Assembly: GCA_017509985.1 (NCBI GenBank)
Contig: JAFWOE010000023.1
Location: 81,266-145,265 of the forward strand
Reading direction: 5' to 3'
Source of the DNA: Lachnospiraceae bacterium
Lineage (GTDB): Bacteria; Bacillota; Clostridia; Lachnospirales; Lachnospiraceae
DNA length: 64,000 nucleotides
Part shown: positions 24,360 to 32,814 of the stretch, one piece after another
How the letters are laid out: every line of letters begins with the position of its first letter
Numbering within the stretch: position 1 is the first letter of the stretch
Translations under genes and position numbers: made by a program
Notes under the pieces: generated by a model
Databases searched by the model: none
Told to the model about the DNA's origin: nothing
Seen by the model: the letters and a program-made list of their open reading frames with translations, nothing else

Positions 24360-24388
24360 TTGCATTTCTGCCTGCCCGGTGATATAGT
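24360..24388 (+). promoter_or_regulatory. Promoter of the TPP-riboswitch nitrogenase-like operon
   Basis: TTGCAT (24360-24365), exactly 17 bases, TATAGT (24383-24388). The riboswitch begins about 11 bases past the expected start of transcription. Confidence 0.65.
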
Positions 24389-24405
24389 AAATAAAACAGA
24401 AAACA

Positions 24406-24495
24406 GAAGCTAGGGGAGCGGCAGCTGAGAACCCGGGAATTATTCCTGATGACCCTTATTACCTGATCTGGTTAATGCCAGCGGAGGGAAGCTTC
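24406..24495 (+). ncRNA. TPP (THI-box) riboswitch
   Basis: All conserved parts are present in order: P1 stem GAAGCT (24406-24411) with AGCTTC (24490-24495), the GGGG and CTGAGA block (24425-24430), ACCC, ACCTGATCTGG (24461-24471), TAATGCCAGCG and GGGAAGC. It senses thiamine pyrophosphate. A following alternative hairpin (CAGAGT 24495-24500 with ACTCTG 24513-24518) and a terminator at 24529 suggest OFF control by premature termination when TPP is bound. Confidence 0.96.
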
Positions 24496-24528
24496 AGAGT
24501 ATAAGAATAAAAACTCTGAATTTTAAAG

Positions 24529-24554
24529 TGTGCTGCTTCGGCAGCACATTTTTT
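24529..24554 (+). terminator. Riboswitch-controlled transcription terminator
   Basis: TGTGCTGC (24529-24536), loop TTCG, GCAGCACA (24541-24548), then TTTTTT. It stands between the TPP aptamer and the first gene, as expected for an expression platform. Confidence 0.92.
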
Positions 24555-24613
24555 GTTTGCGGCCGGATACCGGCTCCGGCGTTTCAGAGTACCGCAGAAC
24601 GGTTATTAATCAC

Positions 24614-29681: not shown

Positions 29682-31006
29682 GCTGCGGGCTGGGCGGTAT
29701 CTATACGGCACTTTCGATCGGCGGGGTGCTTCCGGTCCTGCACAGCGGCCCCGGATGCATCCATGCCATGAATTCCGTCCTTTCCCTTTCCAACGGAGGA
29801 CAGAACCCGGTCCCGTTCATGGAGCTTTCGGTTCCCTGCAGCAATTTAAGCGAAGAAGACGTCGTCTTCGGAGCAGGCGGCAAGATCCGAAGCGTACTGG
29901 AACATGCCCTTCGCTATTACAAGGCGGAGATCTTCCTGATCATTACCGGGTGCTCCGCGGAGATCATCGGAGAAGACATGCAGGAAGTCGCGGATGAGTT
30001 TTCCACACCGGAAAAAACAGTCCTTCCCGTGGCACTCCCGGGTTTTAAAGGGAACAACGTCTGGGGACACGGACAGATCCTTTCAGCCCTTATCGACGGT
30101 TTTGTTGAGCCGTACGGAGAAAGAGGGACCGTGAAAGGCAGGGTCAATGTCCTGGGTGTCGTTCCGTTTTATGACCCCATGTGGGCCGGAACACTGGAGC
30201 GGCTGGAATGCCTTCTGAAACAGATCGGGCTGGAGCCCAACATCCTCTACGGGCGCGATAAAGGCATTCAGGAATTAAAAAGGATCCCGACCGCAGAGTT
30301 CAACCTGGTGCTGGCGCCGTGGACGGATCTGGATGCAGCAAAAAAACTGAAGAGGAAATTCGGCACGCCTTATGTTCATTTTCCGTATATGCCGGTCGGC
30401 CCGACCGCGGAAGCGGAGCTGATACGGGTCCTGACAGAGACAGCAGCGCTGGACGTTCAGAAAACGGAAAGCATCATAAAAGACCGGACAGATCGCTATT
30501 TCTATTATTTTGACCGGAACCTGAACTGGCTGTTCGACATGCACAACCAGCGCAGCCTGCCCAGGGAGTTTTTTGCAAACACATCGGCTTCGGCGGCGCT
30601 TTCGATAACGAAATACCTGGTGTGGGATTTGGGCTTAAGCCCGAGGAAGATCTTCATTCCGGAAGACGTACCGAAAAAGCATCAGCCCGGAGTAAGGGAC
30701 CTTTTCCTGCAGACGGCAAAGGGGTATCTGAAAGAGGAAGATATCGTGTTTACCGATGACGGGGGCCTTTTTGAGCAGTACTTGAAAGATGTGGATCAGA
30801 CGGTCCGGAAGAGCGCCGTGTTCGGCTCGATCTGGGACGATATCACCGCAAAAAAGGCCAATATGCCTTTTGTTCCCGTGGGAACGCCCTACGGAGATAA
30901 TCTGATCTGTGACAAAAATTATTTCGGAACGGACGGCGCACTGTGCCTGATGGCCGATCTGTATAATGACGCGGAGAAAAAAGGACTGTTAAGTGCGGTC
31001 ATCTGA
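29636..31006 (+). CDS. Nitrogenase component 1 beta-like protein (NifK-like)
   Basis: Protein of 456 residues; its ATG lies 46 bases inside the NifD-like gene after a strong GAGGAGGTG site, so synthesis of both subunits is coupled. The three P-cluster ligands of NifK (Cys70, Cys95, Cys153) are matched by Cys17 (RVGCGLGG), Cys41 (LHSGPGC) and Cys106 (ITGCSAEIIGED) at nearly the same spacings. A further Cys68 lies in SVPCSNLSEEDVVFG. It lacks the N-terminal extension of NifK and begins just before the first ligand. It would form the heterotetramer with the NifD-like protein and sit at the docking face for NifH. Confidence 0.87.
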   Translation: MGENSGFSCPEQQRVGCGLGGIYTALSIGGVLPVLHSGPGCIHAMNSVLSLSNGGQNPVPFMELSVPCSNLSEEDVVFGAGGKIRSVLEHALRYYKAEIFLIITGCSAEIIGEDMQEVADEFSTPEKTVLPVALPGFKGNNVWGHGQILSALIDGFVEPYGERGTVKGRVNVLGVVPFYDPMWAGTLERLECLLKQIGLEPNILYGRDKGIQELKRIPTAEFNLVLAPWTDLDAAKKLKRKFGTPYVHFPYMPVGPTAEAELIRVLTETAALDVQKTESIIKDRTDRYFYYFDRNLNWLFDMHNQRSLPREFFANTSASAALSITKYLVWDLGLSPRKIFIPEDVPKKHQPGVRDLFLQTAKGYLKEEDIVFTDDGGLFEQYLKDVDQTVRKSAVFGSIWDDITAKKANMPFVPVGTPYGDNLICDKNYFGTDGALCLMADLYNDAEKKGLLSAVI

Positions 31007-31034
31007 TGCGCCGCAAAACAAACCGGAGGAGAAC

Positions 31035-31865
31035 ATGGGAGAACTCAGACAGATTGCAATATACGGCAAAGGCGGGATCGGCAAGTCCACGACGACACAG
31101 AATCTGACGGTCGGACTGAGCGAGATCGGAAAAAAGGTCATGGTCGTCGGCTGTGACCCGAAGGCGGATGCCACTCGGCTTTTAATGGGCGGAATGATGC
31201 AGAAGACCGTGCTGGACACGATCCGCGACGTCGGGGAAGACCTGGAACTGGAGGATATCATGAAAACCGGGTTCGGAGGGATCCGCTGCGTGGAGTCCGG
31301 GGGCCCAGAGCCGGGAGTGGGCTGCGCAGGCCGCGGGATCATCACTTCTATTAACATGCTTGAAGAGCTCGGGGCGTATACCGAGGATCTGGATTTTGTA
31401 TTTTATGACGTTCTCGGCGACGTCGTCTGCGGCGGTTTCGCCATGCCGATCCGCGAAGGAAAAGCCAAGGAGATCTATATCGTAGCCAGCGGGGAGATGA
31501 TGGCCCTGTACGCGGCGAATAATATCTCCAAGGGCATCCAGCGTTATGCTGCGAGGGGCGGTGTAAGGCTCGGCGGAATCATCTGCAACAGCCGGAACGT
31601 GGACAACGAACTCGAACTGCTGAAGGCCTTTTCCGCAGAGCTGGGCACAAAACTGCTGTATTTTGTACCGCGGAACAACATCGTCCAGCGTGCCGAGATC
31701 AACCGGAAAACCGTGATCGAATACGCTCCGGAAAGCGACCAGGCGAATGAGTACCGGAGCCTGGCAAAAGCCCTTCTGGAGAACCGGGATTTTGTGATCC
31801 CGAAGCCCATGACGCATGAGCGCCTGGAAGAGATCCTTCTGAAATACGGTGCGGGGGAACAGTAA
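31035..31865 (+). CDS. nifH: Nitrogenase iron protein (NifH family)
   Basis: Protein of 276 residues; ATG at 31035 follows CCGGAGGAG. It is strikingly NifH-like: P-loop GKGGIGKS at 11-18, the 4Fe-4S ligands Cys97 and Cys132 and the Arg100 site (GVGCAGRGIIT, DVLGDVVCGGFAMP) at exactly the Azotobacter numbers. CDPKADATRLL and the switch regions are kept. As an ATP-driven reductase it would pass electrons to the NifDK-like partner encoded directly upstream. No DraT/DraG or NifEN genes are in the window. Placement as a group IV or related nitrogenase-like protein needs a tree. Confidence 0.93.
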   Translation: MGELRQIAIYGKGGIGKSTTTQNLTVGLSEIGKKVMVVGCDPKADATRLLMGGMMQKTVLDTIRDVGEDLELEDIMKTGFGGIRCVESGGPEPGVGCAGRGIITSINMLEELGAYTEDLDFVFYDVLGDVVCGGFAMPIREGKAKEIYIVASGEMMALYAANNISKGIQRYAARGGVRLGGIICNSRNVDNELELLKAFSAELGTKLLYFVPRNNIVQRAEINRKTVIEYAPESDQANEYRSLAKALLENRDFVIPKPMTHERLEEILLKYGAGEQ

Positions 31866-31884
31866 AAAAGTAAAACGAGATACT

Positions 31885-32814
31885 ATGTTACAGGGACTGT
31901 ATAACAATTGCCATCTCTGTCCGAGGTCCTGCGGAGCAAACCGGAATGCGGGAGAAAAAGGCTTCTGCGGTATGACCGACCGGTTCGTCGCAGCCAGGGC
32001 AGCGCTTCATATGTGGGAGGAACCGTGTATTTCCGGAAGAAACGGATCGGGCACGGTTTTCTTTTCCGGCTGTACGCTGGGCTGCGTTTACTGCCAGAAC
32101 CGGAATATCGCCCTGGGCCTCGCAGGAAAGGAGATCCCGAAGGAGCGCCTTGTGGAGATCTTTTTTGAACTGGCGGATCAGGGCGCAAACAACATCAATC
32201 TGGTGACGGCGGATCACTTCATCCCCGGAGTGGCCGAAGCCATAAAAGAAGCAAAAAAGGAAGGTTTTTCCCTGCCGTTTCTTCTGAACACCGGCTCGTA
32301 TATCCATGCGGATACGCTGAAGCTGCTGGACGGGCTGGTGGATATCTATCTGCCGGATCTTAAATACATCGATCCGAAAACAGCAGGATCCTTTTCCCAT
32401 GCACCGGATTATCCCGAAATCGCAAAAGCAGCGATAGACGAAATGGTCCGGCAGCTGAGAAGCCGGTGCGGCGGTCAGCGGATCGAAACGGTTTTTAACG
32501 GACAGGGGATCATGCAGCGCGGGATCATCATCCGGCACCTGCTCCTTCCGGGCAGGGTCCTGGAAGCAAAGCTGATCGTAAAATATCTCTTTGAAAAGTA
32601 CGGCGATGAAGTATATCTGAGCCTCATGAATCAGTATACGCCGCCGGCAGATCCTGCAGAGCGGATTCCGAAACTGGCCCGGAAAGTTACGGAAGCCGAG
32701 TACCGGAGCCTGATCGGTTACGCTGCGGAACTCGGGGTAAAGAACGGGTTTATGCAAGAGGGCGAAACCGCCGACGAAAGCTTTATTCCAGAGTTTGACG
32801 GAGAGGGCGTTTAA
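31885..32814 (+). CDS. PflA-like radical SAM protein (COG1313 type)
   Basis: Protein of 309 residues; ATG at 31885 is preferred because it gives the family start LYNNCHLCPRSCG. An N-terminal cysteine motif (CHLCPRSCG, then GFCGM) precedes the radical SAM motif CTLGCVYCQN (CxxxCxxC). NLVTADHFIPG and NQYTPP are typical of the putative pyruvate-formate-lyase-activating-enzyme family COG1313. Its targets are unknown. It starts 19 bases after nifH in the same operon, and the next gene has its own promoter, so it is the last gene under the TPP riboswitch. It may activate or mature a part of this system, which is inference. A weak hairpin (ATAC-T-GTTT with AAAC-G-GTAT at 32829-32851) follows. Confidence 0.8.
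   Translation: MLQGLYNNCHLCPRSCGANRNAGEKGFCGMTDRFVAARAALHMWEEPCISGRNGSGTVFFSGCTLGCVYCQNRNIALGLAGKEIPKERLVEIFFELADQGANNINLVTADHFIPGVAEAIKEAKKEGFSLPFLLNTGSYIHADTLKLLDGLVDIYLPDLKYIDPKTAGSFSHAPDYPEIAKAAIDEMVRQLRSRCGGQRIETVFNGQGIMQRGIIIRHLLLPGRVLEAKLIVKYLFEKYGDEVYLSLMNQYTPPADPAERIPKLARKVTEAEYRSLIGYAAELGVKNGFMQEGETADESFIPEFDGEGV

Follow-up and report, generated by a model that had tools for sequence, protein, structure and literature searches.

A nitrogenase-like operon behind a TPP riboswitch

In the genome of a Lachnospiraceae bacterium (assembly GCA_017509985.1) we analysed a stretch of 64,000 nucleotides from contig JAFWOE010000023.1, hereafter called the window, in which a predicted thiamine pyrophosphate (TPP) riboswitch precedes genes for a nitrogenase-like enzyme and a thiamine-type importer. 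Riboswitch, terminator and eight genes lie on the forward strand at window positions 24402-32814 (Table 1). The widest intergenic gap in this operon is 69 bases, and three pairs of genes overlap by 4, 4 and 46 bases. A preliminary description, made from the sequence alone, had proposed eight tightly packed genes behind a TPP riboswitch and a terminator, with no terminator among them. Both proposals are borne out, as the scan for terminators finds no such site between the genes on the forward strand past the leader.

Table 1. Features of the operon, by window position
Feature	Position	Strand	Basis
TPP riboswitch aptamer	24402..24506	+	Rfam RF00059, 66.1 bits vs gathering score 54.3
Intrinsic terminator of riboswitch (expression platform)	24525..24552	+	stem of 12 pairs, T run
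NifB-like radical SAM protein, predicted maturase for large iron-sulphur cluster	24614..25483	+	TIGR01290, 231 bits
NMT1/THI5-type substrate-binding lipoprotein	25553..26593	+	closest to thiamin-bound 4nmy
ABC permease	26590..27351	+	PF00528, 105 bits
ABC ATPase	27348..28082	+	PF00005, 97 bits
NifD-like catalytic subunit	28110..29681	+	closest to MarD
NifK-like subunit	29636..31006	+	closest to MarK; 9d9u/9fmg at 1e-65
NifH-like ATP-dependent reductase	31035..31865	+	TIGR01287, 459 bits, cut-off 394
PflA-like radical SAM protein, co-directional	31885..32814	+	PF04055, 41 bits

The aptamer scores above the gathering score of its Rfam family and is followed by an expression platform; TPP is its predicted ligand. 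It is the only match to RF00059 in this genome, which is 97.7% complete. An antiterminator pairing can be drawn in the leader; between 0.5 and 11% of shuffled sequences pair equally well, which leaves it suggestive only. The promoter claimed in the preliminary description can be read as TTGCAT-17 bases-TATAGT at 24360-24388, but it is weak and absent from the list of the promoter scan, and promoter-like matches in the region stand at chance level (9, against 6.4 +/- 2.3 in shuffles).

To judge the conservation of this arrangement, we considered the close clade, which consists of the window and five records carrying NifD at 70-79% identity: RUG12916 (L053), RUG14228 (L054), RGIG4356 (L055), Rumen_Coassembly_mag_2168 (L056) and SIG275 (L075, the same contig as L035 of genome G230). 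All five are Lachnospiraceae of the ruminant gut. The order riboswitch, NifB, binding protein, permease, ATPase and NifD is kept in 5/5, and NifK and NifH come next in the 4/4 and 3/3 relatives, respectively, whose contigs extend far enough. Riboswitch and operon share one contig in four of the five; in RUG14228 the riboswitch is on contig L103, which ends within the ATPase gene, and L054 begins 330 bases before nifD. In each of the six clade genomes, the window's included, a single TPP riboswitch was found (RF00059, E 0.001), that of the operon. Behind the aptamer, all six leaders have a hairpin with a T run whose spelling differs in each. Since the NifD tree shows L054, L055 and L075 to be near-copies, the clade amounts to about four lineages with the window counted, in most of which protein identity is 63-87%. 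Because the riboswitch heads an identical gene order in all five relatives, the arrangement is more than chance.

Of the family, 299 genomes were sampled; 50 of them match NifD at E 1e-20, and close identity is reached in two, the window's and G230; within the genus, one of seven genomes has a NifD of the operon type. When one genome of each species was scanned, 37 loci emerged. Contigs of equal length among the matches to NifD and those to the binding protein suggest that the two genes may be paired on five more contigs (41359, 64558, 41608, 6757 and 24537 bases).

The two ends of the gene cluster are less constant. The preliminary description had counted the PflA-like gene as a member of the operon, and it is indeed co-directional and packed, but it gave no tblastn match (at least 40% of the query covered, as in all counts of neighbouring genes) in the 3/3 relatives whose contigs reach that end. 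Immediately upstream of the riboswitch, at window positions 23486-24331, lies a gene for a Nitro_FeMo-Co (NifX-type) domain fused to an FKBP domain (NafX-FKBP), which likewise went unmatched by tblastn in those clade loci that extend far enough upstream. Both genes were rejected as conserved parts of the operon. Downstream, positions 32962-37464 encode an ABC ATPase and then a membrane protein of 1230 amino acids, a very long part of which is repetitive and likely forms a coiled coil.

An enzyme nearest to methylthio-alkane reductase

Among solved structures, NifD and NifK are closest, by sequence and by fold, to the subunits of methylthio-alkane reductase (MAR). The P-cluster and cofactor cysteines of NifD (C52, C77, C145 and C257) are invariant in 48 aligned rows, and the P-cluster cysteines of NifK can be read as Cys17, Cys41 and Cys106. 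NifD also keeps equivalents of MarD Trp195, Phe199, His375 and Arg428, its Trp182 and Phe186 occupying the positions of nitrogenase Gln191 and His195, as in MarD. Among the accessory proteins, NifH retains its P-loop and two cysteines in GCAGRG and VCGGF motifs. The NifB-like protein falls below the cut-off of its profile (344 bits), and all six of the motifs that we take to be characteristic of NifB are present. The claims that the enzyme resembles MAR and does not suit nitrogen fixation are thus upheld: NifD and NifK are nearer to MAR than to nitrogenase, and the tree, the fold and the residues of the active site led to the rejection of an N2-fixing nitrogenase.

The MarBHDK system of Rhodospirillum rubrum (PDB 9fmg, 9d9u; PMC12552129) has the same B-H-D-K gene set and shares the P-cluster and cofactor cysteines and the four active-site equivalents, whereas the operon described here adds a TPP riboswitch and a thiamine-type importer. 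Unlike MarD, to which it is about 28% identical, NifD has Leu for His194 and R416-A417-H418 for the adjacent Arg428-His429. This R-x-H loop is found in all 35 rows of the clade and its nearest group, and R-H in the 15/15 deeper rows and in MarD. IsrBHDK of Rhodobacter capsulatus is likewise a nitrogenase-like B-H-D-K set that works with an ABC importer for a sulphur compound. An isethionate reductase (Isr) was rejected as a candidate, since IsrD is described in PMC11423573 as having one of three P-cluster cysteines and lacking the cofactor ligands, whereas all four D-subunit cysteines are present here.

The ancestry of the enzyme was examined in a NifD tree of 56 rows, which was built in a short search, leaves nine forks open and has L082 and MarD on long branches. 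For the residue alignment, 16 of the 28 loci L007-L034 gave no NifD frame because they are stored in reverse orientation, and L081, L083, L085 and L089 were also left out; the tree omits P0021 and P0059 besides. In this tree the clade nests within a group from Clostridiales Family XIII, Treponema, Butyrivibrio, Synergistaceae and others, MarD groups with deeper Lachnospiraceae rows outside that group, and the window NifD lies outside the NifD/NifE rows. Compared with 31 rows from the nearest group, the 14 rows of the clade have fixed differences at 22 NifD positions, and several of these changes adjoin MarD positions 74, 195, 270 and 428, which are named in the structure paper.

The nearest-group loci (L057-L084), whose NifD is in most cases 41-50% identical and has the same R-x-H loop, differ from the clade in their sulphur-assimilation surroundings. 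Sulphonate-type binding proteins are found at 23/28 of them, cysteine synthase at 16/28, GST-like genes at 10/28 and a C-S lyase at 2/28; cysteine synthase also occurs at 12 of 17 deeper loci. Near the clade loci cysteine synthase gave no match (0/7, four of these loci being shorter than 9 kb). Because the nearest kin lie beside sulphonate-type importers, and often beside cysteine synthase, the ancestral enzyme probably cleaved C-S bonds to assimilate sulphur. No TPP riboswitch at gathering score was found in the 28 loci of this group or in L086-L089, and when 445,780 and 293,828 bases of these loci were scanned for the signature of the riboswitch, no complete TPP element was seen by eye. Of 35 whole genomes, 32 of which have a TPP riboswitch match, G230 alone has one within 20 kb of a nifD match among the matches listed. 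The riboswitch was accordingly rejected as a general trait of the enzyme family. The family-wide survey that the preliminary description had set as a possible refutation thus turned out in its favour within the close clade, where all six genomes have the thiamine elements, although none were found beside the deeper relatives.

Several other nitrogenase-like arrangements came to light. Loci L057, L060, L062, L065, L069, L078, L084 and others combine an SsuA-like importer, cysteine synthase and GST-like genes with nitrogenase-like genes that have the R-x-H loop; they belong to termite-gut-type and Butyrivibrio genomes and appear to represent an undescribed sulphur-assimilation system. A second, more distant NifD/NifK-like pair adjoins the first at L060:15089-17957, and also at L071, L074, L080 and L082. 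Elsewhere in the window's own genome (G000 contig C48, L036:7497-11022), a 769-amino-acid frame fuses NifH-like and NifD-like parts and is followed by a NifK-like gene, and similar fused frames of 730-840 amino acids are found in G229, G058, G216 and G154.

The importer and the supply of thiamine

The ThiYXZ-like importer of the preliminary description is of the thiamine type, with an NMT1/THI5 binding protein, a permease and an ATPase. Among solved structures, the thiamin-bound 4nmy is closest to the binding protein and ThiY 3ix1, a pyrimidine binder, comes second; the protein's binding-site-like motifs agree with those of 4nmy and not with those of 3ix1. Fold and sequence thus place it nearest the thiamin- and pyrimidine-binding members, from which its ligand is predicted. 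At three positions the clade protein has small residues where its more distant relatives have aromatic ones (Y105N, F191L and W207A), and these replacements hint at another ligand. Importers of the ThiXYZ type under the control of TPP riboswitches have been described already (PMC5627462; compare 4nmy and 3ix1), with the same set of binding protein, permease and ATPase. They come without a nitrogenase-like enzyme, whereas the importer genes here sit between nifB and nifDKH. In genome G103, a related importer stands behind the sole TPP riboswitch without nif genes.

Genes for thiamine synthesis were surveyed in seven genomes (the window's, its sister species G229 and five clade genomes, several of them partial), with 14 genomes as controls. 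ThiE, ThiC and ThiN were each found in 0/7, and in 11, 13 and 5 of the controls, respectively. Because neither ThiE nor ThiN was found, the two halves of thiamine would not be joinable by a known route. Thiamine pyrophosphokinase is present in four of the seven, namely the window's genome, where it was confirmed, G230, G299 and G300. ThiT was not found in the window's genome; in the sister species G229, which has no nitrogenase-like operon, it lies directly behind the sole TPP riboswitch. There is no convincing ThiD in the window's genome, in which the one match to PF08543 over the cut-off is a pyridoxamine kinase. Window positions 10963-12397 encode an ECF-type membrane protein (TIGR04002-like) and then pyridoxamine kinase, likely a pair for vitamin B6 salvage.

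A possible route of thiamine salvage

Because the TPP riboswitch and its terminator should switch the operon off at high TPP, the operon would appear to serve the supply of TPP. The imported compound should hold both halves of thiamine, since no joining enzyme was found, and the kinship of the enzyme with MAR suggests that a C-S bond is cleaved by reduction. The reading that we favour, tentatively and at somewhat less than an even chance, is that the operon provides TPP-repressed salvage of thiamine that has been modified but has both halves joined, and that a MAR-type reduction would turn this compound back into thiamine. In such a pathway, TPP would shut the operon off through the riboswitch terminator, and the importer would bring in modified thiamine with both halves joined. 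NifB would supply an [Fe8S9C] cluster to NifDK, and NifDK, fed by NifH, would act on the cargo of the importer, cleaving the C-S bond of the modification reductively and releasing thiamine. Thiamine pyrophosphokinase would then convert the regenerated thiamine to TPP. Suitable substrates would be thiothiamine, a thiazole-2-thione, or an open-ring thiamine alkylated at sulphur, the former being proposed because its reduction would yield thiamine and sulphide. More doubtful, though possible, is the specific version in which a vitamin-making branch of the nitrogenases, as an ATP-driven [Fe8S9C] enzyme, desulphurizes a sulphur-modified thiamine (for example thiothiamine, perhaps formed in sulphidic guts) and so regenerates vitamin B1 under a TPP riboswitch.

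The salvage reading is supported by the nif-like genes that flank the importer genes on both sides in identical order in 5/5 relatives, and by the riboswitch, which was found once in each of the six clade genomes with differently spelled terminators. Also in its favour are the closeness of NifD and NifK to MAR with the retained cysteines and active-site equivalents, the probable C-S-cleaving ancestry together with the 22 fixed NifD changes of the clade, the resemblance of the binding protein to 4nmy, the lack of matches to ThiE, ThiC and ThiN alongside thiamine pyrophosphokinase in four of seven genomes, the ThiT that stands behind the riboswitch of G229 instead of the operon, and the related importer of G103. 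Several observations weigh against it. The adjacent Arg-His pair that is a hallmark of MAR is interrupted in NifD, and three of the surveyed genomes, several of which are partial, gave no thiamine pyrophosphokinase (G229, G301 and G302). G230 has a divergent ThiT-like gene (43.7 bits; TIGR02357 at 39 bits, under the cut-off) in addition to the operon. The close clade is small, with 2/299 genomes of the family, 1/7 of the genus and three near-copies among the five relatives. That such a substrate occurs in guts is a guess; moreover, the binding protein may carry plain thiamine, for which a reductase is unneeded.

That last point leads to an alternative in which ordinary thiamine is the cargo of the importer, while the nitrogenase-like enzyme works separately and is produced under TPP shortage to spare TPP, much as B12 riboswitches control B12-independent isozymes. 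The thiamin-bound nearest relative of the binding protein and the solitary importer of G103 speak for this arrangement, yet no known TPP-dependent reaction could be replaced here by a MAR-type enzyme, and the small residues at positions 105, 191 and 207 hint at another ligand; we consider it unlikely. It is distinctly unlikely that the nif-like genes simply joined a thiamine-importer operon by chance and are co-controlled without a common pathway. The other importers of the deeper relatives, with no TPP riboswitch found nearby, speak for such an accident, but the flanking arrangement has been kept in about four lineages at the protein identities given above, and changes specific to the clade have become fixed at active-site positions of NifD.

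The surroundings of the nearest relatives favour sulphur scavenging, in which the enzyme would free nutrient sulphide from an imported thiamine-like compound and the riboswitch would have arrived with the importer. TPP is the wrong signal for sulphur supply, however, and the clade loci lack matches to cysteine synthase within the lengths stated, which makes this account rather improbable; the earlier proposal that the enzyme releases sulphur or nitrogen as a nutrient fits the TPP switch poorly. There is still less to be said for the idea that a free pyrimidine or thiazole is imported and made into a building block of thiamine: ThiY, the second relative of the binding protein, binds a pyrimidine, but the survey gave neither ThiE nor ThiN in the seven genomes and no convincing ThiD in the window's, and the binding-site-like motifs match 4nmy instead. 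Thus, of the imported thiamine-related substrates first proposed, the damaged vitamin survives and the free pyrimidine or thiazole is not supported. Nitrogen fixation is scarcely credible. NifH does exceed the cut-off of the nitrogenase NifH profile (TIGR01287), but NifD falls outside the NifD/NifE rows and has Trp182 and Phe186 for Gln191 and His195, and MAR itself does not reduce N2 (PMC12552129).

Nitrogenase-like enzymes have been linked so far to nitrogen, sulphur, chlorophyll and F430. Titles and abstracts, with the subscription literature mostly outside the search, yielded no report of such an enzyme that is governed by a TPP riboswitch or takes part in thiamine metabolism, in keeping with the earlier statement that no system of this kind has been described; nor, by title and abstract, was there a paper on the biology of thiothiamine. 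The half of the operon formed by an importer behind a TPP riboswitch is already known, and what is found here is a known kind of enzyme in a new setting. If salvage of modified thiamine is the correct reading, it would tie nitrogenase-like enzymes to a vitamin and extend thiamine salvage beyond the known ThiC, ThiE, TenA and ThiM routes. Through the riboswitch and the binding protein, the substrate of an orphan nitrogenase-like enzyme can be approached directly from two sides. Loss of thiamine in ruminants is linked to rumen sulphur and thiaminases, and, as the relatives come from ruminants, a gut system that may restore sulphur-modified thiamine would be of ecological interest.

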